A DNA stretch of 64,000 nt from Saprospira sp. CCB-QB6 (GTDB lineage: Bacteria; Bacteroidota; Bacteroidia; Chitinophagales; Saprospiraceae), in NCBI RefSeq assembly GCF_028464065.1, contig NZ_CP116808.1, positions 3,377,501-3,441,500 of the forward strand. The letters are read 5' to 3'. The translations under genes and the position numbers were made by a program. This document shows positions 5,287 to 59,294 of the stretch, in pieces; position 1 is the first letter of the stretch; each line of letters begins with the position of its first letter. The notes under the pieces were generated by a model that worked only from the letters and a program-made list of their open reading frames with translations, did not search any database and was not told the DNA's origin.

Positions 5287-5378
5287 GGAGGAATGGGTGA
5301 GTGGCTGAAACCACCAGTTTGCTAAACTGACGTACTTCGAAAGGGGTACCGCGGGTTCGAATCCCGCTTCCTCCGCCA
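5287..5378 (+). tRNA. tRNA-Ser (GCT), copy 1
   Basis: The acceptor stem GGAGGAA pairs with TTCCTCC. The anticodon loop TTGCTAA gives anticodon GCT (serine AGC/AGT). It has a long variable arm and a GGTTCGAATCC T arm. The gene body is 89 nt and CCA is encoded (5376-5378). Confidence 0.96.
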
Positions 5379-5397
5379 GATTTGGCTTCGGCCAATT

Positions 5398-5472
5398 CGG
5401 GCTTTGGCGCAGTTCGGTTAGCGCGCCTGCTTTGGGAGCAGGAGGTCGCAGGTTCGAATCCTGCAAGCCCGA
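5398..5472 (+). tRNA. tRNA-Pro (TGG), copy 1
   Basis: 75 nt with acceptor stem CGGGCTT/AAGCCCG. The anticodon stem CCTGC/GCAGG encloses TTTGGGA, giving anticodon TGG. The T arm is GCAGGTTCGAATCCTGC. CCA is not encoded. It lies 19 bases behind the first tRNA-Ser. Confidence 0.96.
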
Positions 5473-5478
5473 CATATT

Positions 5479-5518
5479 AAAAGGTCCTAATTATCGTAAA
5501 GATGATTGGGACTTTTTA
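5479..5518 (+). terminator. Imperfect terminator-like hairpin after tRNA pair 1
   Basis: AAAAGGTCC and GGGACTTTTT flank an AT-rich loop and form an imperfect stem ending in a T run. It may end transcription of the first tRNA pair. Confidence 0.5.
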
Positions 5519-5539
5519 AACTACATTCAGAAAACACTC

Positions 5540-5631
5540 GGAGGAATGGGTGAGTGGCTGAAACCACCAGTTTGCTAAACTGACGTACTTCGAAAGGGGT
5601 ACCGCGGGTTCGAATCCCGCTTCCTCCGCCA
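5540..5631 (+). tRNA. tRNA-Ser (GCT), copy 2
   Basis: Reads identical to copy 1 through the gene body and encoded CCA. The immediate upstream bases (ACACTC versus GCACTC) are also shared, so the duplication extends slightly beyond the gene. Confidence 0.96.
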
Positions 5632-5652
5632 GGCAATTGGCTTCGGCCAGTA

Positions 5653-5727
5653 CGGGCTTTGGCGCAGTTCGGTTAGCGCGCCTGCTTTGGGAGCAGGAGG
5701 CCGCAGGTTCGAATCCTGCAAGCCCGA
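5653..5727 (+). tRNA. tRNA-Pro (TGG), copy 2
   Basis: Same 75-nt structure as copy 1 with one difference, in the variable region (GAGGCCGC here, GAGGTCGC in copy 1). The anticodon is TGG. It is followed at once by a strong terminator. Confidence 0.96.
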
Positions 5728-20353: not shown

Positions 20354-20474
20354 GGGGCCCGCGGCCAGCAAGCTGGCCGCCGCTATGCTGTGGGGCTCAC
20401 AGGGCTGTTCGGCCCTTCGCTGGCTTCGCCAGCTCGGTCTGGCGCTGCGCGCCACCCCTCCGCAGCGCTGGGCC
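20354..20474 (+). repeat. GC-rich intergenic element, copy 6 (forward)
   Basis: TTTTGGGGCCCGCGGCCAGC with hairpin GGCCAGCAAGCTGGCC, GTTCGGCCCTTCG, variable hairpin GCTGGCTTCGCCAGC, GGTCTGGCGCTGCGCGCCA, ending GCGCTGGGCC. It bounds the first 41-bp array on the dnaE side. Confidence 0.85.
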
Positions 20475-20530: not shown

Positions 20531-21010
20531 GTAAAATGCATTTAGCTGTGGCGTTGCGCCACAGCCGTCTGCATCATTACATTTAGCTGTGGCGTTGCGC
20601 CACAGTCGTCTGCATCATTACATTTAGCTCTGGCGTTGCGCCACAGTTGTCTGCATCATTACATTTAGCTGTGGCGTTGCGCCACAGCCATCTGCATCAT
20701 TACATTTAGCTGTGGCGTTGCGCCACAGCCGTCTGCATCATTACATTTAGCTGTGGCGTTGCGCCACAGCCGTCTGCATCATTACATTTAGCTGTGGCGT
20801 TGCGCCACAGCCATCTGCATCGATACATTTAACTAGGGGGATTCCCCCAAGGCGTCTGCATCGATACATTTAACTAGGGGGATTCCCCCAAGGCGTCTGC
20901 ATCGATACATTTAACTAGGGGGATTCCCCCAAGGCGTCTGCATCAATACATTTAGCTAGGGGGATTCCCCCAAGGCGTCTGTATCAATACATTTAACTAG
21001 GGGGAGCTGT
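20531..21010 (-). repeat. 41-bp tandem array 1 (12 units, two hairpin cores)
   Basis: Twelve units at an exact 41-base period (TTTAGCT/TTTAACT at 20541, 20582 ... 20992). The first seven have the core GTGGCGTTGCGCCAC; the last five have AGGGGGATTCCCCC (the final one incomplete). The linker CTGCATCATTACATTTAGCT is shared by all. No coding potential and no unique spacers. On the minus strand the linker reads AGCTAAATGTAATGATGCAG, the same polarity as arrays 2 and 3 on the plus strand. Confidence 0.95.
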
Positions 21011-21013
21011 ATA

Positions 21014-21352
21014 AGGCCCTATCTTTTTTTCTGGACCGCCCCTACTACAAATTAGCTAGCTTGGCTTAGCAGCGAAATATTGGATGCGGTTGTATTTAAG
21101 CCCTTGTCATTTTACCCTAGGGGCAAGCCCCTAGGCTAATAGTAGTAGTCGCCTGCTCCTTCGAGGGGGCTTTTTGTTTGGCTCTATTGGTTAATTGGGC
21201 CCAGATGTAATTTTGTGTATTGCCCCTTAGGTACTAAGTCTATATTTGAAGAGCAAGCAAATAATTGGTAGTTAAAGATTTTACTCGCTTAACTGTTCAA
21301 GCTCAGGAGGAAAGGCGAATCCCCTCGAAGGAGGGGATGATAGATTTAATAG
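21014..21352 (-). repeat. 339-bp noncoding module, copy 1 (inverted)
   Basis: The reverse complement of the modules at 49771-50109 and 57981-58319. The outer parts match closely (GGCCCTATCTTTTTTTCTGG, the GCGAAATATTGGATGCGGTT stretch, CCTAGGGGCAAGCCCCTAGG, the CTCGAAGGAG hairpins). The middle (about 21200-21290) has diverged. No open frame of note. Confidence 0.9.
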
Positions 21353-21412
21353 CCTAGGGCCTTGGCCCTAGGGGGAATTTATATCATATTGGCCTGTAGG
21401 TTGAAACCTGCA
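21353..21412 (-). repeat. Single 81-bp-type unit of composite locus 1
   Basis: CCTAGGGCCTTGGCCCTAGG, GGGAATTTATATCATATTGG and the palindrome CTGTAGGTTGAAACCTGCAG make one inverted copy of the 81-bp unit that forms a 14-fold array at 48.65-49.77 kb. Confidence 0.8.
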
Positions 21413-21433
21413 GCCCATGGCCGAAGGCCAAAC

Positions 21434-21555
21434 GGCCTAGCGATGTGCAGCAGTGGCCCGCAGGGCCAGACCAAGCCGCCGCAGGCGGCGAAGGGCCGAG
21501 CAAATAGCGAGCTGCGGAACGTAGCGCCGCAAGGCGAAGCCGCAGCGGAGGCCCC
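21434..21555 (-). repeat. GC-rich intergenic element, copy 7 (reverse)
   Basis: GGCCTAGCGATGTGCAGCAG, GGCCCGCAGGGCCAGACC, variable hairpin GCCGCCGCAGGCGGC, AGGGCCGAGCAAATAGCGAG, hairpin GCGGAACGTAGCGCCGC and GGCCCC. It closes composite locus 1, upstream of the LRR gene. Confidence 0.85.
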
Positions 21556-48117: not shown

Positions 48118-48144
48118 GTAACTATTTTTCTGATTTTGGTTTTT

Positions 48145-48443
48145 GGGGCGTTACTCCTTTCAGTCGTCGAACTGCGCCCTAAAGGGCTTGTTGTCGCTGC
48201 GGCTTCGCCTTGCGGCGGTTACTCCCTTTGGTCGTCGAACTGCGAACTAAAGTTCTTGTTGTCGTTTACTTCGTCGAACTGGCGCCTCTTTGAGGCTGGT
48301 TGTCACAGCTCGCTGCTGTTTTGGGGCCTCCGCTGCGGCTTTGCCTTGCGGCGCTACGTTCCGCAGCTCGCTATTCGCTCGGCCCTGCGGCGGCTTTGCC
48401 GCCTTGGTCTGGCCTGACGGCCACTGCTGCACATCGCTAGGCC
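48145..48443 (+). repeat. GC-rich intergenic element, copy 16 (forward, extended head)
   Basis: Three head segments containing TCGTCGAACTG (CAGTCGTCGAACTGCGCCCT, TGGTCGTCGAACTGCGAAC, CTTCGTCGAACTGGCGCCTC) precede a complete element from about 48323. That has CTCCGCTGCGGC, CAGCTCGCTATTCGCTCGG, variable hairpin GGCGGCTTTGCCGCC, GGTCTGGCCTGACGGCCA and CATCGCTAGGCC. It opens composite locus 2. Confidence 0.85.
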
Positions 48444-48655
48444 TGCGGCCCTTCGGGCCTGCTACATGGGGCTGTAGGTTAAAACCTACAGCAAGCAAGG
48501 TATTGCTCCGCAATATTTTTTATGAAATGCGGGTTGAAACCCGCATTGATTTAAATCTTTTGGCCTTAGAACTGGCTGTTTTCCTCTACGTATATGGGCT
48601 GAAGGTTTTAACCTTCGGCCCATTTTATTAGGCTTTGCATGGCTTCCCTTTTTGC
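48444..48655 (+). repeat. Chain of paired hairpins in composite locus 2
   Basis: CTGTAGGTTAAAACCTACAG, GGTATTGCTCCGCAATATT, GCGGGTTGAAACCCGC and GGGCTGAAGGTTTTAACCTT with GGCCC. At the same positions in locus 3 the stems are CTGTGGGTTAACACCCACAG, GGTATCGCTTTGCGATGCC and GAGGGTTAAAACCCTC: different bases, pairing kept. Confidence 0.85.
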
Positions 48656-49770
48656 TGTGGGTTTCAACCCACAGGCCAATAGGATATAAATTTTCCTCCT
48701 AGGGCCAAGGCCCTTTCACCCATCTCCAATGAAGCCTGTAGGTTTCAACCCACAGGCCAATAGGATATAAATTTTCCTCCTAGGGCCAAGGCCCTTTCAC
48801 CCATCTTCAATGAAGCCTGTAGGTTTCAACCCACAGGCCAATAGGATATAAATTTTCCTCCTAGGGCCAAGGCCCTTTCACCCATCTCCAATGAAGCCTG
48901 TAGGTTTCAACCCACAGGCCAATAGGATATAAATTTTCCTCCTAGGGCCAAGGCCCTTTCACCCATCTTCAATGAAGCCTGTAGGTTTCAACCCACAGGC
49001 CAATAGGATATAAATTTTCCCCCTAGGGCCAAGGCCCTTTCGCCCATCTCCAATGAAGCCTTTAGGTTTCAACCCACAGGCCAATAGGATATAAATTTTC
49101 CTCCTAGGGCCAAGGCCCTTTCACCCATCTTCAATGAAGCCTGTAGGTTTCAACCCACAGGCCAATAGGATATAAATTTTCCTCCTAGGGCCAAGGCCCT
49201 TTCACCCATCTCCAATGAAGCCTGTAGGTTTCAACCCACAGGCCAATAGGATATAAATTTTCCTCCTAGGGCCAAGGCCCTTTCACCCATCTTCAATGAA
49301 GCCTGTAGGTTTCAACCCACAGGCCAATAGGATATAAATTTTCCCCCTAGGGCCAAGGCCCTTTCGCCCATCTCCAATGAAGCCTTTAGGTTTCAACCCA
49401 CAGGCCAATAGGATATAAATTTTCCTCCTAGGGCCAAGGCCCTTTCACCCATCTTCAATGAAGCCTGTAGGTTTCAACCCACAGGCCAATAGGATATAAA
49501 TTTTCCTCCTAGGGCCAAGGCCCTTTCGCCCATCTTCAATTAAGCCTTTAGGTTTCAACCCACAGGCCGATATGATATAAATTTTCCTCCTAGGGCCAAG
49601 GCCCTTTCACCCATCTCCAATGAAGCCTTTAGGTTTCAACCCACAGGCCGATATGATATAAATTTTCCTCCTAGGGCCAAGGCCCTTTCACCCATCTCCA
49701 ATGAAGCCTTTAGGTTTCAACCCACAGGCCAATAGGATATAAATTTCCCCCCTAGGGCCAAGGCCCTAGG
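48656..49770 (+). repeat. 81-bp tandem array, 14 units
   Basis: GTTTCAACCC recurs at 48661 and every 81 bases to 49714 without a length change. Each unit has the palindrome TGTAGGTTTCAACCCACAG, GGCCAATAGGATATAAATTT and the hairpin CCTAGGGCCAAGGCCCT. Units alternate CATCTCC/CATCTTC, and a variant (TTTCGCCC) recurs 324 bases apart (49021, 49345), so blocks of four units were copied. Loci 1 and 3 hold a single unit. Confidence 0.95.
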
Positions 49771-50109
49771 CTATTGAATCTGTCATCCCCTCCTGCGAGG
49801 GGATTTGTCTTTCCCCCTAAGCTTGAACAGTTAAGCAAACAAGATCTTCAATAAACTTCTTTCTCTTTCTCTTGAAACATAAGAATTAGGAGCTAGGAGC
49901 CAAGACCGAAAATTTCGTCTGGGCCTAGTGAATCAATAGGGCCAAACAAAAAGCCCCCTCGAAGGAGGGGGCGACTATTACTATTAGCCTAGGGGCTTGC
50001 CCCTAGGGTAAAATGAGAAGGGCTTAAATACAACCATATCCAATATTTCGCTGCTAAGCAAGCTTAGCTAATTTGTAGTAGGGTGGGTCCAGAAAAAAAA
50101 GATAGGGCC
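49771..50109 (+). repeat. 339-bp noncoding module, copy 2
   Basis: Nearly identical to 57981-58319 and of exactly the same length. It contains hairpins CCCCTCCTGCGAGGGG, GCCCCCTCGAAGGAGGGGGC and CCTAGGGGCTTGCCCCTAGG, and the stretch CCAATATTTCGCTGCTAAGC. It has no ORF with plausible coding character. Confidence 0.93.
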
Positions 50110-50490
50110 TTAGACAGCCTCCCCAAGCTAATTGTAATTTGCAGATTGGGCTGGGCGTCACGCCCAAGCTAATTGTAATTTGCAGATTGGGCTGGGCGTC
50201 ACGCCCACGCTAATTGTAATTTGCAGATTGGGCTGGGCGTCACGCCCACGCTAATTGTAATTTGCAGATTGGGCTGGGCGTCACGCCCACGCTAATTGTA
50301 ATTCGCAGATTGGGCTGGGCGTCACGCCCACGCTAATTGTAATTCGCAGATTAGCTGGGGGAATCCCCCCAGCTAAATGTAATGATGCAGATGCCTTGGG
50401 GGAATCCCCCTAGCTAAATGTAATGATGCAGATGCCTTGGGGGAATCCCCCTAGCTAAATGTAAGGATGCAGTCGCCTAGGGACAAGCCC
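50110..50490 (+). repeat. 41-bp tandem array 2 (9 units)
   Basis: Units start near 50129 and repeat at 41 bases (one step of 40). Five have the core GGGCTGGGCGTCACGCCC, one has GCTGGGGGAATCCCCCCAGC, and the last units have CTTGGGGGAATCCCCCTAG and a GCCTAGGGACAAGCCCCTAGGC variant. The linker is CTAATTGTAATTTGCAGATT in the first part and GCTAAATGTAATGATGCAGA in the last. Confidence 0.93.
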
Positions 50491-50727
50491 CTAGGCTAAT
50501 CAAATAGAGTCAGCCCTCTGCGAGGGCCTCAACTGCTGATATAGACGCTCTTGCTAAGTCATTCTAGCAGCGAAGGTCCTTATCCAAAGGCCCTCTTTAG
50601 AGGGCTGTCTGAAAAAGTTAGCCTAGGGGCTTGTCCCTAGGCGCAGGAAAGGGGCCGCAGGAAAAGCAAGCCCCCCAACAACAAAAAAGGCCCAAACCCC
50701 TCGGTTTGGACCTGTTCGATCGCTATG
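50491..50727. other. Noncoding tail of composite locus 2
   Basis: It contains CCTCTGCGAGGG-type and GCCTAGGGGCTTGTCCCTAGGC hairpins and CCAAACCCCTCGGTTTGG (50692-50710), which on the minus strand may terminate hsdS. No gene is seen. Confidence 0.6.
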
Positions 50728-51954
50728 CTATTTCCCCTCATAAAAGTAGGCCTGCAATAAGGCCCCAAATAAATCCTCCGCCGATTGCTGGGCCGACTGA
50801 ATGAGCGCCTTTTGCCGCTCTATCCGCTCTACCAATTGCGCAAATTGCTGCTGTAAAGGAAGTGGAGGGAGGGCAACAGACAAAGAAAGAAACCCTTTTT
50901 TAGAAATATTTTTCATACTCCCACTTGTTCCAGTTGCAATCTGTTGTAGTGTTAGCATAAAACTTTCCATAGAGATTGCCTTAGCTAACCAAATAGTAGA
51001 ATGCTCTTTATCCCCTTTTTCAGTCATCCATAATCGATCAGGTAAATAAAGGTTGTCATAATCCTCTTTTATATAAGCAGATTTCCCAACCAATTCGGAC
51101 GTATTCATTCTACTAATAATAATACTACCTGCTTTAGGATTTAATTTGGCTCTAGAGAGCTCTTCATCTTTAATTACTTTAGCTTCTAATGGATTAAAAG
51201 CTCCAGAATAAACACAACTGGTTTTTAATATCCCTTTACGTTCTTTAGAGTAAGTCGTATCAGTTGAATTAACAGATGTTCCTGCATTTAATTTCTTAAT
51301 CAGCTCCCCTAACTTCACGACCTCCCAGCCCTTAGGATTGAGCACAGGATCCCCAAACATATCCAGAAAGCTGGCCGCCAGCAAACGATCATAATCCGCT
51401 AGGCTTTGGGCCAAGGCCTGTCGAAGCTTATCCGCTCGATCGAGCTGGGCCGCTATGGCCTTTTGCGCTGGTAAGGGGGGGAGGGGGATGGAAACCTCCT
51501 TTAAGTACCTTGTTAATTGGAGATTTATAATACCAGTTGTTTTATTCTGGTACAGGTTAGTAAGCCCTACCTTATGAATATAAAACAAATAGTAGAACAA
51601 GAACTTCTGATCTAATTTCTGATCATTTTTAGCTCTTAATATAGATGTAAAATTATTGCACAAATAAGTGCCTTCTTCTTTGAAGAAAACAACCCGTCCA
51701 ACAGGCTGCTTGGGGCTTCCTCCAGACTTTTCTATAATTACATCTCTTTTGCGTAGCTGCTTTTTCTCGACTTTGGTTTCTGGAATATCTCGATATGCTA
51801 CACCTTTCGTTAAATCAACTTTACCTTCATTGGTAAAATTGGTAGTGCGAATTACACCTATTTTTCTATCTGTTGGGTCTGTTCCCCATTCCCCTGAAAT
51901 AGGTTTTGTCAGTACCTCCCCCAGCTTTACCTTTTTCCAATCTCTCTTCTTCAT
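50728..51954 (-). CDS. hsdS: Type I restriction-modification specificity subunit
   Basis: 408 residues in the usual S-subunit plan. The first target-recognition domain (1-165) ends at the conserved helix PLPPLPAQKAIAAQLDRADK. The second (210-370) starts NPKGWEVVKLGELI and ends PLPLQQQFAQLVERIERQKA. The recognition domains are more AT-rich than the helical spacers, as expected from exchange of specificity. It sets the DNA target of the HsdM/HsdR complex. It is the last gene of the set, 213 bases behind hsdM with a GC-rich element between. Confidence 0.95.
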   Translation of the reverse strand: MKKRDWKKVKLGEVLTKPISGEWGTDPTDRKIGVIRTTNFTNEGKVDLTKGVAYRDIPETKVEKKQLRKRDVIIEKSGGSPKQPVGRVVFFKEEGTYLCNNFTSILRAKNDQKLDQKFLFYYLFYIHKVGLTNLYQNKTTGIINLQLTRYLKEVSIPLPPLPAQKAIAAQLDRADKLRQALAQSLADYDRLLAASFLDMFGDPVLNPKGWEVVKLGELIKKLNAGTSVNSTDTTYSKERKGILKTSCVYSGAFNPLEAKVIKDEELSRAKLNPKAGSIIISRMNTSELVGKSAYIKEDYDNLYLPDRLWMTEKGDKEHSTIWLAKAISMESFMLTLQQIATGTSGSMKNISKKGFLSLSVALPPLPLQQQFAQLVERIERQKALIQSAQQSAEDLFGALLQAYFYEGK

Positions 51955-52031
51955 TTCTTTGATTTATTTGGCTAAACAATTGGGCCTCAGCGGCAAGGGG
52001 GCGCAGCCCCCTTGGGCCCGTTAGGGCCATT

Positions 52032-52160
52032 GGCCCAGCGCTGCGGAGCGGGTGGCCGTCAGGCCAGACCAAGGCGGCGCAGCCGCCGCAGGGCCGAGCG
52101 AATAGCGAGCTGCGGAACGTAGCGCCCGCCGCCCCAAATTGAAGGGCGGCCGCGGGCCCC
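52032..52160 (-). repeat. GC-rich intergenic element, copy 17 (reverse)
   Basis: GGCCCAGCGCTGCGGAGCGG, GTGGCCGTCAGGCCAGACC, variable hairpin GGCGGCGCAGCCGCC, AGGGCCGAGCGAATAGCGAG, CGCCCGCCGCCC...GGGCGGC and GGGCCCC. It starts 7 bases behind the hsdM stop and splits the hsdM-hsdS transcript. Confidence 0.85.
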
Positions 52161-52167
52161 AAAAGCA

Positions 52168-53673
52168 CTAATCTAGAAGCTGCTGCAAATCAGCAAGTTC
52201 TTTTAGGCTCGTTTGTAAATCCTGCTGAATCTTTTGGATAATCTCTTGGGGCGGATCATAGGCCACGGCCTCATATTGAATCTCTTTATAGCGGTTGATC
52301 GAGAGATCGTAATCATTTTCTTGTAGCTCAGCAAGGGGCACCATAAAGGACTGCTCGGTACGGCTGCGGTTCTCCTCCTGTTCCAGTTTGGCCCAGCGTT
52401 GCAAAATATCGGGCAGGTTATTCTCTTCATGGCTTTGGGCTTGGCCCTCTTTGCCCAAAAACTGCCGCTTATCATCTAGGGAAAAGCCATCGGCCTGCAT
52501 ATCATAGAACCAGACCTTATCGGTGCCGCCCGCATTGGTTTTGGTAAAAATCAGGATGGCCGTGCTGACCCCCGCATAGGGTTTGAAAACGCCCGAAGGC
52601 ATAGAAATAACGGCCTGTAGCTCCTGTTTTTCCACCAACTGCTGGCGGATTTCCTTATGGGCCTTGCTGCTGCCAAAGAGAACGCCATCGGGGATAATGA
52701 CCGCCGCTCTACCGCCATTTTTGAGTAGGCGAAGGATTTGGGCCAAAAAGAGCAATTCCGATTTGGTGGTCTTGACCATCTTCGTGAGTTCCTCATCCAA
52801 ATCATCCTTGTCCACCGTCCCCTTAAAAGGCGGATTGGCGAGGATGAGCGAGCAGCTCTCTTCTAGGTCGGCATTTCGGGGCGAAAGCGCATTGATATCG
52901 CGCAACAAAGGCTGCTCGATGCCGTGCACAAAAAGGTTCATGGCGCCCACACGGACCATAGTGGGATCAAACTCTAGGGCCGAGAACATCTTGCTGCGGA
53001 AATGCGCTTGGTTTTCGCTTTTGACCAAGGCATCTTTATGGTTTTTGCGGACATAATCGGCGGCCTCTACCAAAAAGCCCGCGGTACCCGCCGAGGGGTC
53101 GCAAATGGTATCTTGTACATTGGGTTGCATCATGTCCACCATCAGGCGGATAATGTGTCGGGGCGTGCGGAACTGTCCATTTTTCCCTGCCGAAGAGAGT
53201 TTAGATAAGAGATACTCATAGAGGTCCCCCTTGGTATCCGAGTCCTTATAATTGACCGAAGAAAGGGCCAACACCACCTGATCCAGCAACTTAGCGGAGG
53301 GGATCATAAAGCTGGCATTTTGCATATAGCGGGCAAAGATCGAGACATTTTCCTTAGCCTTCCCTTGTGAAAGTTCTTCTCGCATAAAGGGGAAAACCTC
53401 ATCGCGCATCTTTTCGAAGCGTTCTTCGGGGTTCATTTGTTTGAGGTTCGACCAGCGGAGGCTCTCTTGTTCTTCTTCAAAAAAGACCTTTTTCTCATAG
53501 CCTTCGCCAAAGAGGGCGGCCAGTTGGTCTTGTGCATTTTGGCGCATATCGAGTTCCTGCAAAAACATCAGGTAAGTCAGTTGCTCGATTACGGTCACGG
53601 GGTTGGTCACCCCACCCGACCAGAAGTAATTCCAAATTTTATCTATATCGTTGCGTAATTCTCCAGTAATCAT
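52168..53673 (-). CDS. hsdM: Type I restriction-modification DNA methyltransferase subunit
   Basis: 501 residues. An N-terminal HsdM helical domain (DKIWNYFWSGG, LTYLMFLQELD) precedes the N6-adenine methylase core, with SAM motif CDPSAGTAGFLVEAA near residue 190 and catalytic LANPPF near 280. It methylates host DNA at sites set by HsdS and is part of the restriction complex. The order is hsdR-hsdM-hsdS on the minus strand with 381 bases between hsdR and hsdM. Confidence 0.96.
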   Translation of the reverse strand: MITGELRNDIDKIWNYFWSGGVTNPVTVIEQLTYLMFLQELDMRQNAQDQLAALFGEGYEKKVFFEEEQESLRWSNLKQMNPEERFEKMRDEVFPFMREELSQGKAKENVSIFARYMQNASFMIPSAKLLDQVVLALSSVNYKDSDTKGDLYEYLLSKLSSAGKNGQFRTPRHIIRLMVDMMQPNVQDTICDPSAGTAGFLVEAADYVRKNHKDALVKSENQAHFRSKMFSALEFDPTMVRVGAMNLFVHGIEQPLLRDINALSPRNADLEESCSLILANPPFKGTVDKDDLDEELTKMVKTTKSELLFLAQILRLLKNGGRAAVIIPDGVLFGSSKAHKEIRQQLVEKQELQAVISMPSGVFKPYAGVSTAILIFTKTNAGGTDKVWFYDMQADGFSLDDKRQFLGKEGQAQSHEENNLPDILQRWAKLEQEENRSRTEQSFMVPLAELQENDYDLSINRYKEIQYEAVAYDPPQEIIQKIQQDLQTSLKELADLQQLLD

Positions 53674-54054
53674 AAAGCTATTTTTTTGAGGGGGGAATAT
53701 AGGAAGTTTTTTGTTGGGGCGGGGGGATTTTTTGTTTAGTTGTTTTTGTGGGGGGGGGCTTGGGTCATATATCTCATTTTTCTTATTATTTCCCTTCCAT
53801 GCTTACAGCCCTGGGCTGAAGCCCAGGGTTGTTGACTGAGCGAACTGACGGACTAAAGTCCTTGTTCGCTTTTCTATTCTAAGGCTATTCACTATAGTAA
53901 GAAAATGATCCCAAGCCGTTTATTCGTAGCCGTTATGGGCCGATGGTTTTAACCATCGGCTCATTTTCATTGCGCCTAGTATGGCCTCTTTTGTTGCTGT
54001 GGGTTTCAACCCACAGGTACTATGAAATGCCAATAGTCGCCTAGGGGCTTATCC
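53674..54054. other. hsdR-hsdM spacer with hairpin repeats
   Basis: It contains G runs near 53710-53760, a hairpin CCCTGGGCTGAAGCCCAGGG (53809-53828), a GACGGACTAAAGTCC stem, the two-hairpin module and a CCTAGGGGCTTATCCCTAAG repeat that runs into the 3' end of hsdR. No gene is seen. Confidence 0.65.
53930..54022 (+). repeat. Two-hairpin repeat module, copy B
   Basis: GGGCCGATGGTTTTAACCATCG, ATTGCGCCTAGTATGGCC and GTGGGTTTCAACCCAC, nearly the same as 38430-38525. Beyond it both copies continue to CCAATAGTCGCCTAGGGGCTT (after 13 bases here). Confidence 0.8.
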
Positions 54055-57000
54055 CTAAGCCGGTTCCGTATTCTTATTTATGGCCTTAATGAGGTCTACA
54101 AGGCCATGAGCATGCCCGCCGAAGAGCTCTATTAAATTGCCATGGTGATTGAAGGGCTCGCCCATAATATCTTGGGGGGGTAAATAGCCATTGGTCACAA
54201 AATGTTGCACAATCAATTGGACTAGGGCCAGTTGTTGGGCATTCCATTTTTGTTCTTGCAGATAATCGGCAAAAGCGTTTTGGACGGCTGCGGGATCTAG
54301 ACCAATAATCGAGCGGATGAATCGGCCCAAAGAGAGCTCGCCTTGTTCGGCTTGCAGCTCTTCTTTTTTGCCTTGGGTTTGCTCAAGGATAAAGCGTTCT
54401 AGGGCTTCTACCTCGGCTAGGGTCAGGGGCTGATTGCTATGCAGCTTTTGCAGATAAAGCTGCTCCTTATTTTCGGTCAGTAGGCGGTAGAGTCGTTGTT
54501 TGTAGGGTTCGGAATAGCCACCGCCATAGCCTTCCATTTCTCTTTCTTCTGCTCCAGTTAGTTCATCGGCAAAATGGCTATAAATGGCTTTCTTTTGCTT
54601 TTTATCGAGCAGGCGGAGCAGTTCTCGGAGTTCTAGGCGGGCCGTTTCTAGTCCCCAGAAATCGAGGGCCTCAATAGCGCCGATTTGGCGCAATTCTCTA
54701 ATGAGTGTTGCTTTTTCTCGGATCTGTTTGATATTGCCTTTTTGGGCCAGCAGATCGAGGCTTTCGCGCAGGCGGTTGGCCTTTTTGCTTCGGTCTTTAT
54801 TTTTTAGGAAAAGCAATTGTAGTTGCCAAATCATTTGATCGAAGCGGCGGGCGCCCAGATCGCTATCCTGATTGACCTGAGCGGCTAGGGGGGCTAGCTC
54901 GTCTACAATTTCCTTCAGCTCTTTGCTATTGAGTTGATCCCAGCGGCTGCGCTGTTCATACTTCTTATAGATGGGGTAAACCGCTTTAACCTCAATCTGA
55001 TGCAGGTCTAGGGCCATTAGGGCCTGCCAGGCCTCATCTCTTAGGGCCTTTTGATGGGCCAAAAAGCGTTCATCTTCTTGATAATCTAGATGATTGAGGG
55101 CTTGGGCAATCTCTAATTTGAGTTTATAGGCTCGCTCCTCCATAGAGGGGCTGCGGCTGCCTTGGCCCTTATCAAATTCCGCCTCGAAGAAGCTTACATT
55201 ATCGCAGACATCAAAGATGTAGAAGAAGGTTTTATCTTGGCTGGGCCCAAAGAGGTCGGGCGCTAGGCGGGTGCCTCTACCCAGCATCTGCCAGAACTTG
55301 GCATGAGAGCGGACCTTTTTGTAGAAGACCAGATTGACAATTTCGGGTACATCTACGCCCGTATCGAGCATATCGACCGAAATGGCAATTTGGGGCAATT
55401 GGTTGGGGTCTTTAAAGCGATCGTAAAGCGATTCCACATAATCCTTAGCGCTATAAATGGTTTCGGCTAGATCGGCTTGGGCCGGAAAAAGCAGGTCAAA
55501 GCGCTGTTTGAGGAATTTAGCATGCTTGGTATTCTTGGCAAAGATGATGGTTTTGCCCAGTTTATCGCCTTGGTCGACCTTTAGGCCTTTTTCCATTAGT
55601 AGATTGAGGATTTTATCGGCCGTAGGGGCATTGAAGAGGCGGACATCTAGCTCGCTATTGGCGATAGATTCGGGCATTTCCTCTTCTTCCTCATTCATGA
55701 AGCTATCTTCATACTCTTCTTTTTCGGCCGCGCTGAGGTCCTTATAATGCACGCCTTCATTGGTAATTTGGGTGCTGCCATCTACGATGATAGGCGGAAC
55801 CAGATAATTGGCCTCCACAGCAGCTTTGAGGGGATACTCAAAAGTGGGGTTTTCATTGGCGCAATGAAAGAGCTGATAGGTATTGCGGTCCACCTGATCT
55901 TGGGGGGTAGCCGTTAGGCCGATTAGGATGGCATCAAAATAATCAAAGATGGCCTTATACTTTTTATAGACGGAGCGGTGGGCCTCATCCACAATAATAA
56001 AATCGAATTGGGCAATGCCAAATTTTCGACCCTCCTCTCGGTTGAGGTAGTTGAGCATAGTCGGATAAGTAGAAAAGACCAGGCGGGCGTGTTCTTCGCC
56101 TTCTTCCTTCTTATCGAGCAGACTAAGGCTGCTGTAGTTTTCTAGGTGGTTTTTAAAGGCATGTTGGGCTTGCTTGACTAAACTGCGGCGGTCGGCCAAA
56201 AAGAGAATGCGTTTGGCCCAGTTGTTTTCAAAAAGGACCTTGGCTAAGGCGGCAGCCGTACGGGTTTTTCCGCTACCGGTGGCCATAGACAAAAGCACGG
56301 CCCGCTCTCGGTTTTCTAGGGCTTGGTTTACGCTCAGGATGGCCTGTATTTGGTAGGGGCGACCAGCAATATTGGGGTCGGGCCCTACGGTCTCAATAGC
56401 TTGGCGCTGCTTGTGTTTATAATGTAAACTCTGTAGCTCTTCTCGGCTATAAAAGCCGAGGATGCGGCGTTCTGCCTTATAAAATTGATCGTCAATGATT
56501 GTGGTTTCTAGGCCATTGCTCAAAAAGATAATGGGGCGGCGGCCCGTATCTCGTTCTAGGGCATCCGCATATATTTTGGCTTGTTCCTTTCCCTTTTCTG
56601 GATCTTTCGTAATGGATTTAGCTTCGAGGATGGCCAGGGGTAGTCCCTTTTCATCAAAGAATACATAATCGACAAAGCCGTTGCGGCCGGGCAGCATTTG
56701 GTTAAGCTTATATTCTTGAGCGACTTGTCGATTATCCTCTAGGTTCCAGCCCGCTTCTCGCAGCATCTGGTTAATATAGAGGTCGCGACTTGCTTTTTCG
56801 CTTCGCACCTCTGGCGCTAGGCCAGGTTCCTCGCCTTTTTTCAGCAGATTGGCGCGGTTGCGTTCTTTTTGGGCCTTAAACTGTGCGTTTTCTTCTTTTA
56901 GTCGCTGGTGTTCTGCCTCAATCTTCTTGAGTCGTTCCAGCTCCTTGAGGATAGTTTTTTGTTTGTCCTCAAAGGTTTTTTCAAGTTGGGCCAATTCCTT

Positions 57001-57456
57001 TCGGCTCAACTCTTTTTGTTCGGCTCCGCCTAGGGGCAGATGCTCATCGGACCAGCTATGAATGGGCATAGCCTCATTGGCCGAATAGCTTCGGGCCAGC
57101 CAATTCATAAAGCGGAAAACATTTTTCAGGGCTTCTTTGGCTTCCGAAGCATTGATCGCCTGAGCGCTATGGGCGGCGGTATTTCCAATTTTGCGAATGT
57201 AATCTAGGTCCCGCTGCATAGAAGGTCGCAGCATTTGCTTAAAGCTAGGCTTTTGCAAAAGACCAAAAAGGGTTTCATCCAGATAACGTTGGCCCAAATC
57301 TTCATCATGGTCATAGAGCCAATAAACGGTCAGTTCTAGGGTCAATCGGCTATAAAAAGCAGCCGTACGAGGGGCGGTCAATAGATGTTTTTCGGCCTCT
57401 CTGGCTTGGGTATATAGCTGGGGCCATTCCTTTTTGAGGAATTGGAAGTTACTCAT
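54055..57456 (-). CDS. hsdR: Type I restriction enzyme R subunit (EcoEI-like)
   Basis: 1,133 residues. Residues 1-125 form a DUF4145-like helical domain and 155-205 a coiled coil. The nuclease core has Asp263 and Glu278-Ala-Lys280 (LPLAILEAKS), a PD-(D/E)XK site. The translocase follows: Walker A ATGSGKT 392-398, DEAH 490-493, GLTATPQ, and motif VI in MLGRGTRLAPDL. The C-terminal part is of the EcoEI R type. It cuts unmodified DNA after ATP-driven translocation. The last codons and stop lie inside a dispersed hairpin repeat, so its C-terminus may be altered. Confidence 0.95.
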   Translation of the reverse strand: MSNFQFLKKEWPQLYTQAREAEKHLLTAPRTAAFYSRLTLELTVYWLYDHDEDLGQRYLDETLFGLLQKPSFKQMLRPSMQRDLDYIRKIGNTAAHSAQAINASEAKEALKNVFRFMNWLARSYSANEAMPIHSWSDEHLPLGGAEQKELSRKELAQLEKTFEDKQKTILKELERLKKIEAEHQRLKEENAQFKAQKERNRANLLKKGEEPGLAPEVRSEKASRDLYINQMLREAGWNLEDNRQVAQEYKLNQMLPGRNGFVDYVFFDEKGLPLAILEAKSITKDPEKGKEQAKIYADALERDTGRRPIIFLSNGLETTIIDDQFYKAERRILGFYSREELQSLHYKHKQRQAIETVGPDPNIAGRPYQIQAILSVNQALENRERAVLLSMATGSGKTRTAAALAKVLFENNWAKRILFLADRRSLVKQAQHAFKNHLENYSSLSLLDKKEEGEEHARLVFSTYPTMLNYLNREEGRKFGIAQFDFIIVDEAHRSVYKKYKAIFDYFDAILIGLTATPQDQVDRNTYQLFHCANENPTFEYPLKAAVEANYLVPPIIVDGSTQITNEGVHYKDLSAAEKEEYEDSFMNEEEEEMPESIANSELDVRLFNAPTADKILNLLMEKGLKVDQGDKLGKTIIFAKNTKHAKFLKQRFDLLFPAQADLAETIYSAKDYVESLYDRFKDPNQLPQIAISVDMLDTGVDVPEIVNLVFYKKVRSHAKFWQMLGRGTRLAPDLFGPSQDKTFFYIFDVCDNVSFFEAEFDKGQGSRSPSMEERAYKLKLEIAQALNHLDYQEDERFLAHQKALRDEAWQALMALDLHQIEVKAVYPIYKKYEQRSRWDQLNSKELKEIVDELAPLAAQVNQDSDLGARRFDQMIWQLQLLFLKNKDRSKKANRLRESLDLLAQKGNIKQIREKATLIRELRQIGAIEALDFWGLETARLELRELLRLLDKKQKKAIYSHFADELTGAEEREMEGYGGGYSEPYKQRLYRLLTENKEQLYLQKLHSNQPLTLAEVEALERFILEQTQGKKEELQAEQGELSLGRFIRSIIGLDPAAVQNAFADYLQEQKWNAQQLALVQLIVQHFVTNGYLPPQDIMGEPFNHHGNLIELFGGHAHGLVDLIKAINKNTEPA

Positions 57457-57565
57457 GTTTGTCTGTTTTGTTCTGCCCTGAAAATAATTAAAAATGCTTC
57501 AAGAACTACAAAGAAAACAGACTTTTGTCCAGCCTATCTAGAATCTAATATTTTTTTGATGTTTT

Positions 57566-57722
57566 GGAGCCTCCGCTGCGGCTTCGCCTTGCGGCGCTAC
57601 GTTGCGCAGGCTCGCTGTTACTTGCTTCGCTGCGTCGGCTCCCGGTGGTCGGGTCGCTCGGCCCTGCGGCGGCTTTGCCGCCTTGGTCTGGCCTGACGGC
57701 CACTGCTGCACATCGCTAGGCC
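57566..57722 (+). repeat. GC-rich intergenic element, copy 18 (forward)
   Basis: GGAGCCTCCGCTGCGGCTTC, GCGGCGCTACG, an insert CTTGCTTCGCTGCGTCGG/CCCGGTGGTCGGG, CGCTCGGCCCTGCGG, variable hairpin GGCGGCTTTGCCGCC, GGTCTGGCCTGACGGCCA and CATCGCTAGGCC. It opens composite locus 3, upstream of hsdR. Confidence 0.85.
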
Positions 57723-57980
57723 GATACTGTGGGTTAACACCCACAGCAATCTGGTATCGCTTTGCGATGCCTTATAAATGAGGGTTAAAACCCTCATTGA
57801 TCTAAATCTTTTGGCTTTTTATCTTTCTCACTTAGTCAATCGACCCTCTTTTAGCTATGGGCTGAAGGTTTTAACCTTCGGCCCATTTTATTAGGTTTTG
57901 CATGGCTTCCCTTTTTGCAGTGGGTTTCAACCCACAGGCCAATAGGATATAAATTTCCCCCCTAGGGCCAAGGCCCTAGG
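57723..57980 (+). repeat. Hairpin chain and single 81-bp unit of composite locus 3
   Basis: Collinear with 48444-48740 of locus 2. It has CTGTGGGTTAACACCCACAG, GGTATCGCTTTGCGATGCC, GAGGGTTAAAACCCTC, the GGGCTGAAGGTTTTAACCTT hairpin, GTGGGTTTCAACCCAC and CCTAGGGCCAAGGCCCTAGG. Only one 81-bp unit is present here. Confidence 0.9.
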
Positions 57981-58319
57981 CTATTGAATCTGTCATCCCC
58001 TCCTGCGAGGGGATTCGTCTTTACCCCTGAGCTTGAACAGTTAAGCAAACAAGATCTTCAATAAACTTCTTTCTCTTTCTCTTGAAACATAAGAATTAGG
58101 AGCTAGGAGCCAAGACCGAAAATTTCGTCTGGGCCCAATTAACCAATAGAGCCAAACAAAAAGCCCCCTCGAAGGAGGGGGCGACTATGACTATTAGCCT
58201 AGGGGCAAGCCCCTAGGGTAAAATGAGAAGGGCTTAAATACAACCGCATCCAATATTTCGCTACTAAGCGAGCTTAGCTAATTTGTAGTAGGGTTGGTCC
58301 AGAAAAAAAAGATAGGGCC
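57981..58319 (+). repeat. 339-bp noncoding module, copy 3
   Basis: Same length as copy 2 and differs from it at only scattered positions. One change keeps pairing: GGGGCAAGCCCC here, GGGGCTTGCCCC there. Direct orientation relative to copy 2, 8.2 kb apart. Confidence 0.93.
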
Positions 58320-59080
58320 TTATGCACCCTCCCCACGTCAATTGTAATCTACAGATTAGCTGGGGGAAATTCCCCACGTCAATTGTAATCTGCAGATTAG
58401 CTGGGGGAAATTCCCCATGTCAATTGTAATTTGCAGATTAGCTCTGGGATTTTCCCAACGTCGATTGTAATTTGCAGATTAGCTCTGGGATTTTCCCAAC
58501 GTCGATTGTAATTTGCAGATTAGCTCTGGGATTTTCCCAACGTCAATTGTAATTCGCAGATTAGCTCTGGGATTTTCCCAACGTCAATTGTAATTTGCAG
58601 ATTAGCTCTGGGATTTTCCCAACGTCAATTGTAATTTGCAGATTAGCTCTGGGATTTTCCCAACGTCAATTGTAATTCGCAGATTAGCTCTGGGATTTTC
58701 CCAACGTCGATTGTAATTTGCAGATTAGCTCTGGGATTTTCCCAACGTCAATTGTAATTCGCAGATTAGCTCTGGGATTTTCCCAACGTCAATTGTAATT
58801 TGCAGATTAGCTCTGGGATTTTCCCAACGTCAATTGTAATTTGCAGATTAGCTCTGGGATTTTCCCAACGTCAATTGTAATCTGCAAATTAGCTGGGGGA
58901 AATTCCCCCTAGCTAAATGTATCAATGCAGATGCCTTGGGGGAATCCCTCTAGTTAAATGTAATGATGCAGATGGCTATGGCGCAACGCCACAGCTAAAT
59001 GTAAGGATGCAGACGGCTGTGGCGCAACGCCAGAGCTAAATGTAATGCTGAAGATGCCTTGGGGGAATCCCCCAAGCTCC
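58320..59080 (+). repeat. 41-bp tandem array 3 (18 units, several hairpin cores)
   Basis: Eighteen units at 41 bases from about 58338. The core is GCTGGGGGAAATTCCCC in the first units, then GCTCTGGGATTTTCCCAAC in the central block, GGGGGAAATTCCCCC once more, and finally CTTGGGGGAATCCCTC, CTATGGCGCAACGCCACAG, CTGTGGCGCAACGCCAGAG and CTTGGGGGAATCCCCCAAG. The last four share cores and linker (GCTAAATGTAATGATGCAGA) with array 1. Confidence 0.95.
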
Positions 59081-59152
59081 CTGATAAATAAAATCCTAGC
59101 GGCAAGGAAGGGGCACAGACAAAATTTCAAACAGAGTTTTTTATGCGTGTAG

Positions 59153-59294
59153 AGGCGGCGAAGCCGCCGGCTGAGGGATGGATAGGGTGGCCCGCAGGGC
59201 CAGACCGAGCAAAAATGCGCAGCATTTTTTGCGAAGGGCCGAGCGAGCAGCGAGCCCGGAACAGCCCGACCCGACCGAAGGGAGGGGCAGCCCC
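59153..59294 (-). repeat. GC-rich intergenic element, copy 19 (reverse)
   Basis: AGGCGGCGAAGCCGCCGG, GGCTGAGGG, GGCCCGCAGGGCCAGACC, variable hairpin GCAAAAATGCGC/GCATTTTTTGC, AGGGCCGAGCGAGCAGCGAG and GAGGGGCAGCCCC. It closes composite locus 3. Confidence 0.85.

Follow-up and report, generated by a model that had tools for sequence, protein, structure and literature searches.

Architecture of the composite loci

Within the 64,000-nucleotide stretch of the Saprospira sp. CCB-QB6 genome analyzed here (contig NZ_CP116808.1, positions 3,377,501 to 3,441,500; hereafter the window), three composite repeat loci lie at 20.35–21.56, 48.15–50.49, and 57.57–59.29 kb. A sequence-only reading had described them as one superelement in three copies. 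Our reading confirms their places and the common order of parts, in which a GC-rich element is followed by GGTTNNAACC hairpins, a 339-bp module, and a 41-bp array. As described, locus 1 has the inverted orientation, and an opposite GC-rich element closes locus 1 as well as locus 3. The 81-bp unit assigned to the same plan forms a tandem array at locus 2 only (13.7 copies) and is represented by a single partial unit in loci 1 and 3. Rather than copies of one superelement, the loci are mosaics of several repeat families: the outer parts belong to a genome-wide family (denoted as A), and the interior matches repeats that flank IS200-type transposase (TnpA-Y1) genes. The count of three does not hold for the 339-bp module: at least 18 loci of the CCB-QB6 genome contain it, 11 of them with a nearly full-length copy, one with a copy that another repeat interrupts, and six with partial copies. 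This is a lower bound, as 18 of 112 first-look candidates were scored. No close copy of the module was found in 39 other genomes, where only pieces of up to ~100 bp occur in three strains of the genus. The earlier observation holds, yet it covers a small part of a larger system, and its interpretation as a whole is partly supported.

Locus 1 is bounded by an A element on the plus strand (20354–20474; 102.6 bits with the covariance model), with a T-run and GGGG at its left, and by one on the minus strand (21434–21555; 102.8 bits). Between them, all on the minus strand, are a 41-bp hairpin array of 11.1 copies (20539–20995), the 339-bp module (21009–21346; 85% identical to the locus 2 copy), and a GGTTNNAACC hairpin read from the sequence (21395–21415). 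The parts of locus 2 all lie on the plus strand. Here, the GC-rich element that belongs to the shared family is an A element at 48323–48443 (110.7 bits), which stands behind another GC-rich hairpin stretch (48140–48322) read from the sequence; a hairpin extension resembling this stretch sits inside another A copy (L069 3771–3933). A chain of GGTTNNAACC hairpins (48471–48676) matches repeats flanking TnpA-Y1 genes. The 81-bp array (48655–49767) reads as an amplified junction of a GGTT hairpin with the first hairpin of the 339-bp module, and shows short matches to both kinds of TnpA-Y1 flank. The module itself (49776–50115) is followed by 41-bp hairpin arrays (50122–50472) and by a repeat of ~120–180 bp with CCTAGGGG hairpins (50471–50654), whose best match (83%, E 5e-48) is to a TnpA-Y1 flank of strain Lewin. 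Type I restriction-modification genes for specificity, methylase, and restriction subunits occupy the minus strand between loci 2 and 3 (50728–57456). Locus 3 opens with an A element (57566–57722, plus strand; 75.2 bits), continues on the same strand with a GGTTNNAACC hairpin chain read from the sequence (57725–57935), the 339-bp module (57986–58322; 95% identical to locus 2), and 41-bp hairpin arrays (58330–59062), and closes with an A element of the GGGGCTG/CAGCC subtype (59169–59294, minus strand; 63.7 bits).

A multi-helix element family in Saprospira

A is a family with 32 base pairs in nine helices, and its members are mostly 92–160 nt long. Short linkers are fixed (CGCTA-GTT, GCTCGCTATTCGCTCGGCC, GTCT, and CACA-CGCT), and the stems between them are free in sequence as long as their arms are Watson–Crick complementary. 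In Saprospira, a T-run usually precedes the element, which occurs alone or as an inverted pair around variable cargo. The frame is seen in 15 further composite loci of the same genome, where a T-run followed by GGGGC marks one end and its reverse complement marks the opposite end. In all 15, the covariance model places A at both ends in plus/minus order.

A regular expression recovered 46 copies in a 304-kb sample of the CCB-QB6 genome, and the covariance model recovered 211 copies in 675 kb. The first covariance model was built from 39 copies aligned without structure (alignment A1), and the second from copies of Saprospira, G014, and G018 together with one G012 copy. The 304-kb sample, which includes the window, contains 97 A copies, a density of one per 3.1 kb that takes up 4.0% of the sequence; 77 of these sit in the 240 kb outside the window. 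Extrapolation from this sample gives an estimate of ~1,300 copies per genome. An earlier pattern was too strict and gave three matches in 13 genomes. Genome scans gave at least 93 matches each in CCB-QB6, DSM 2844, Lewin, and WH-T (93 of 93 scored candidates), and covariance-model scans gave none in two drafts of the genus, G003 (63% complete) and G004 (90% complete). With the second model, A is found in 32 of 199 Saprospiraceae genomes and 24 of 112 genera, with 1 to at least 19 matches per genome. Across the phylum, three of 395 genomes match, namely CCB-QB6 itself, one of the same family, and a weak match in another family; filters were stricter in the family and phylum scans, and few candidates were scored in each genome, which means that copies can be missed.

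Two Saprospira plasmids have 16 A-matching places each. The Lewin plasmid NC_016936 (L310 10012–18727) carries many purine biosynthesis genes, and its best A match lies in the 176 bp that separate purH from the following gene. At L175, a called open reading frame (ORF) ends on the first base of A, and a possible stop triplet (TAG or TGA) is seen at the corresponding junction at L182, L183, and L188. A viral origin of A was considered; viral_contigs contains no exact match to one core pattern of the element. No description of A was found among the listed titles and abstract openings of the open literature on Saprospira, Saprospiraceae, or general terms, and the genome announcement of S. grandis WH-T does not mention repeats (PMC10508125). 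These results suggest that A represents a family of folded DNA elements, of which our searches turned up no previous account.

Compensated changes in the stems

Pairing in A is conserved while stem sequences change. Among 143 distinct copies, 98.2% of cells are paired against 79.5% in shuffles, and 777 cells are changed on both sides against 225, levels that none of 500 shuffles reached. The signal from the number of pair types is less clear-cut (35 of the 500 shuffles). A one-base slide of the partner arm brings pairing down to 40–58%. In the structure-free alignment A1 (39 copies), 18 of the 32 predicted pairs show changes on both sides, and the same covariation is present in 67 copies of four genera and in 20 copies of 14 genomes; one of these 20 copies had also contributed to the model, L176 and L082 being one and the same place. 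The closing stem differs between genera, reading, for example, GGCCT/AGGCC, GCATC/GATGC, or GCGTG/CACGC, and the linkers stay alike. Invariant pairs are uninformative, and one of them, a helix 7 G–T pair, was excluded from the counts.

Compensation is also visible at single sites compared between strains. In a strict ortholog set, which required both flanks with A masked and provided orthologous A for 30 of 68 elements of CCB-QB6, 190 of 257 changed pairs are compensated (52 pairs of elements). In a loose set, for which one flank was enough and A was not masked (46 of 68 elements), the corresponding number is 462 of 600 (95 pairs of elements). The sequence-only reading had noted stems that differ between loci yet still pair, and such compensated stems are real: in 205 distinct contexts of GGT-TNNM-ACC hairpins, Watson–Crick pairs at the flanking positions 1, 2, 4, and 5 number 158, 184, 170, and 190 against 74, 79, 100, and 119 in shuffles. 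The excess is modest at positions 3 and 6 (186 against 168 and 95 against 72).

In the 143 copies, the P2 arms, ~60 nt apart, have a normalized mutual information of 0.78, and the P0 arms, ~110 nt apart, one of 0.82. The stems P3, P4, and P5, which lie inside P0 and P2, are weakly linked to those arms (0.04–0.31), and P5 shows a linkage of 0.10 to the P2 arm a few nucleotides away. Since distant arms are linked and the intervening stems only weakly so, a single conversion tract does not explain the pattern, which sets back single-tract gene conversion as the sole cause of the paired changes. A broader possibility is that the elements are passive palindromes kept perfect by replication, in which template switching or mismatch repair copies one arm to the other, conversion between copies keeps the linkers alike, and no function is involved. 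The replacement of whole stems, several bases at once, at orthologous A sites is consistent with such copying, as is the nearly exclusive Watson–Crick pairing of Saprospira A, and template switching is discussed as a cause of actively maintained inverted repeats elsewhere (PMC6649704; PMC7202029). Against this possibility, P0 and P2 pair across mostly independently varying hairpins and are unlikely arm-to-arm templates, and conversion within a genome cannot yield linkers that are alike across genera when the stems are not. We consider this explanation unlikely.

The pairs favor folded DNA over RNA

The sequence-only reading had proposed selection on structure, as RNA or as DNA hairpins. Conservation of pairing is strongly supported, and DNA hairpins fit better than RNA. 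Excluding the invariant pair, the 4393 cells of the 143 Saprospira A copies comprise 4302 Watson–Crick pairs, 9 G–T, 12 A–C, and 70 others (56 of them C–T), and A lacks the normal share of G–U pairs expected of covariation in a structured RNA. Terminator-like hairpins from other strains contain 855 Watson–Crick, 68 G–U, and 30 A–C pairs with A masked, and 1538, 122, and 46, respectively, in a larger set of unmasked stretches; those of the CCB-QB6 sample contain 579, 34, and 20. These hairpins were picked by a symmetric rule allowing few mismatches, and the shares are only roughly comparable with those of A. The ratio of G–T to A–C in A differs from that in the terminators of other strains (Fisher p 0.026). 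The GGT-TNNM-ACC hairpins behave like A, with 31 G–T and 49 A–C over six positions in the 205 contexts, and 167 other mismatches, 92 of which are at the outermost position. Because the pairs are almost only Watson–Crick with few wobbles, the A stems favor folded DNA rather than RNA.

The competing explanation is that A is a structured RNA, either regulatory or a SINE-like RNA template, and that compensation results from RNA folding. A plan of multiple helices with conserved unpaired linkers is typical of RNA. The two A strands fold unequally: with RNA parameters, the drawn strand is the better folder in 45 of the 143 copies from Saprospira and in 7 of 51 from other genera, and with DNA parameters in only 17 of 143. 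Changed cells between strains lean toward wobbles on the drawn strand, with 12 Watson–Crick/G–T against 4 Watson–Crick/A–C changes in the strict set and 23 against 15 in the loose set. The other genera lean toward the opposite strand, with 6 G–T against 15 A–C when helix 7 is excluded. Either lean leaves room for RNA, and both, together with the unequal folding, count against a DNA-only reading; they point, however, to opposite strands. The overall wobble share in Saprospira A is 0.2–0.3% on either strand, compared with ~7% in terminator-like hairpins (68 of 953). In addition, A shows no orientation bias relative to genes: in the 304-kb sample, 27 copies run in the same direction, 25 are opposite, 23 lie between convergent and 15 between divergent genes, 2 are inside called ORFs, and 5 are at edges. 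In Rfam, only four tRNAs in the window reach the gathering score, A is without a match there, and the stretches tested gave sub-threshold matches only. Taken together, an RNA origin of the compensation appears quite improbable. The rarity of wobbles, the balanced orientation, and the lack of a gathering-score Rfam match likewise set back an RNA gene or riboswitch. A terminator function was also set aside; the T-run precedes A, and A also occurs between divergent genes (15 of 92 classified copies). Separately, the tRNA genes (window 5287–5727) form two tandem pairs that probably arose by duplication, as their Rfam matches have equal scores.

Placement of A along the genome

A is present in 74 of 155 intergenic gaps, as called from mechanical ORFs. 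In the CCB-QB6 sample (the window and L064–L075), the spacing of A islands is more even than random gap choice (coefficient of variation 0.62 against 0.85, P 0.0005), and the evenness persists when small gaps are left out (P 0.001); it could mean self-avoidance or a spacing function. Of 26 close A neighbors in the sample, 25 are in the plus/minus inverted arrangement with T-runs outward, which corresponds to the inverted palindrome pairs of REPINs and BIMEs.

BIMEs that serve as gyrase sites are comparable host elements. A may be a host chromosome element, such as a gyrase or nucleoid-protein site that absorbs supercoils and is selected at each site. Its occupancy of nearly half of the gaps and its even spacing agree with such a role, as do the A sites common to several strains and the 16 A-matching places on each of the two plasmids. 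On the other hand, the gaps depend on mechanical gene calls, and even spacing is also expected from insertion at one copy per gap with self-avoidance. Moreover, the drafts G003 and G004 of the same genus lack A matches, and the range of 1 to at least 19 matches across the family is unlike that of a needed chromosome part. This role seems improbable for A.

Cargo between paired A elements

Three other strains have both A elements of locus 1 in the same position, upstream of dnaE. The interior, comprising ~900 bp of array and module, is present only in CCB-QB6 and is missing from the same A pair in the three strains. An outer A pair (48323 and 59169–59294) frames loci 2 and 3 together with the type I restriction genes. 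Its counterparts in three strains are only 126–188 bp apart, with the same two neighboring genes; the right-hand neighbor is only ~76% identical in the other strains. The counterparts of the A element opening locus 2 are at L059 5179–5290, L060 5206–5321, and L061 8427–8538.

The restriction genes are located elsewhere in the three other strains. In Lewin, they lie between the counterparts of the A elements at window 15309 and 16425. In CCB-QB6, these two elements frame one gene; Lewin keeps that gene there too, and further A copies lie within its restriction stretch. The other two strains also have the restriction genes near dnaE. Parts of the methylase/specificity stretch are 94–98% identical to other strains, and much of the rest is ~87–91% identical, which suggests recent exchange of this stretch. 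For the restriction block, recombination between dispersed A copies would suffice as a route. In strain WH-T, a stretch of GGTT hairpins stands at an A site after the same T-run and GGGGCCC start (L132 400–620); A itself is present at this site in CCB-QB6 and Lewin.

Interior repeats match the flanks of TnpA-Y1 genes

The sequence-only reading had taken a hit to a known transposon as grounds against a distinct element. Such a match exists in part, for the interior only, in the form of TnpA-Y1 flank repeats. Both ends of the 339-bp module match four tandem 206–210 bp units beside a TnpA-Y1 gene of CCB-QB6 (G000 3945007), with 81–89% identity over ~60 bp. These units lie on one side of the gene (L150 1500–2950) and contain the same kinds of hairpins as the module, making them its candidate source. 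The repeat at window 50471–50654 is 75–83% identical to six copies flanking a Lewin TnpA-Y1 gene. That gene (L056 6560–8070) has a type I restriction gene on one side and the methylase gene of the system on the other, and the Lewin repeat (~six copies at L056) also seems to break up the 339-bp module in two places, L029 and L034. Three further TnpA-Y1 loci have repeats matching the GGTT chain, and a fourth matches it by a single hairpin. Overall, interior modules match repeats at six of seven TnpA-Y1 loci (L150, L056, L115, L114, L152, and, by one hairpin, L149). In control tiles (four of 20 kb, 80 kb in total), a single spot matched, where one repeat gave short matches of 33 and 22 bp that overlap each other. 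The interior modules also carry hairpins at both ends as read from the sequence, and their association with the transposase genes is REPtron-like, a transposase gene being flanked by a dispersed repeat.

All four TnpA-Y1 proteins scanned pass the IS200 model NF033573. The REP-transposase model NF047646 is below its cut-off in three and unlisted in one, and no cognate REP-type tyrosine transposase was identified among the four. All four keep the HUH and tyrosine positions, and two carry the Y---Q--HH motif given for subclass 1.2; the gene at L150 has the subclass 1.2 motif. The table of a 2018 survey lists no REP for this subclass (PMC6006769).

A adjoins some TnpA-Y1 loci. Its own association with such genes is not REPtron-like, given genome G018, in which 143 of 150 scored candidates match A and no match to PF01797 (TnpA-Y1) was found in a draft that is 97% complete in ~430 contigs. 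TnpA-Y1 is therefore not required for A, at least now, which sets it back as the mover of the element. A helper gene beside A was also sought in low-copy genomes; the ten proteins inspected, from three single-match loci and one other, have no transposase or recombinase domain.

Discussion

The best explanation of the loci is that they are mosaics of DNA elements acting as folded single-strand or cruciform DNA. Specifically, the A pairs probably enclose single-strand DNA elements that resemble REPINs and BIMEs. The interior is read as cargo of these pairs because it matches repeats around low-copy TnpA-Y1 genes of the HUH, IS200 type. In the proposed mechanism, TnpA-Y1 enzymes would cut and rejoin the interior-repeat hairpins on single-stranded DNA, as TnpA-REP does for REPs, and the repeats would then pile up, expand in tandem, and recombine inside the A pairs. 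A itself may have been spread by a DNA enzyme that reads structure, and its pairing would still be maintained, either through selection or through DNA repair. Cargo, of which the composite interiors would be an example, would collect between the two elements of an A pair.

Several results, besides the wobble leans and strand inequality described above, weigh against this reading. The ratio of G–T to A–C in A does not differ significantly from that in the 54 G–U and A–C cells of CCB-QB6 terminators (p 0.13), and the DNA-fold z-scores of A are modest and variable (mean −1.9, range −6.2 to 2.2). Alignments A2–A6 were fitted to the model, which favors pairing, although A1, aligned without structure, agrees. 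The stem modules are not all independent: the adjacent P0 and P1 are linked at 0.55–0.67, and P2 and its outer pair at ~0.4. The strand of 46 solitary copies shows no bias relative to GC skew (16/13 against 9/8, p 1.0), giving no support for lagging-strand insertion. Movement of A was not seen: 30 of 72 A islands map on both sides in at least one other strain, and none of the 30 has a gap below 131 bp that would be a clear empty site of the kind expected for a MITE, a gap of 131 bp or more being by itself no proof of an A copy there. The 15 additional composite loci gave no mapping of both sides in other strains. The TnpA-Y1 locus L151 of strain DSM 2844 has no match to the interior modules, and the absence of a PF01797 match from the A-bearing G018 counts on the same side.

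A more far-reaching proposal concerns A alone. Its estimated ~1,300 multi-branched copies, forming 4% of the genome, may represent a new, structure-coded class of DNA that is read by its single-strand or cruciform fold, with stems rewritten and pairing actively kept at each site, and with inverted pairs serving as sockets for the uptake and release of cargo, an entire restriction system among it. We put this forward as a tentative possibility.

The system resembles REPINs and BIMEs with their RAYT (TnpA-REP) transposases in having extragenic palindromic repeats in inverted pairs, compensatory changes of the kind reported for REPINs, and, as in REPtrons, a low-copy HUH transposase gene flanked by repeats (PMC3116915; PMC6006769). 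A differs from REPs in its multi-branched form, in place of one hairpin, and in lacking an established transposase. The four TnpA-Y1 proteins, in turn, differ from RAYTs, being of the IS200 type and not above the REP-transposase cut-off. A GTAG-type tetranucleotide was not noticed at the foot of A or interior hairpins on reading, and no systematic search for it was run. TIRYTs and TIRtrons are also similar, being tyrosine transposases flanked by repeats of dispersed families, sometimes as dimers or clusters; the motif GGGGWSAS given in their description does not fit GGGGCCTC or GGGGCTGC of A (PMC3733652). BOX elements of Streptococcus pneumoniae are modular noncoding repeats built from end modules and from a middle module whose tandem copy number varies, comprising 125 elements of 67–637 bp (PMC3049150). 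Here, an estimated ~1,300 A copies, composites longer than 2 kb, and several interior families are present. Integron attC sites are folded single-strand DNA recognized by structure, with variable stem sequences; A is unlike them in being multi-branched.

Dispersed bacterial palindromes are usually single hairpins and are expected to decay after movement stops. In contrast, A has multiple helices, occupies sites shared between strains and about half of the called intergenic gaps, and shows mostly compensated stem changes with few wobbles. The interior repeats are candidate substrates for TnpA-Y1 enzymes with the subclass 1.2 motif, for which the 2018 survey lists no associated repeats (PMC6006769). 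A, for its part, allows a direct test of whether the cell maintains DNA folds as such, by selection or by arm-to-arm copying.

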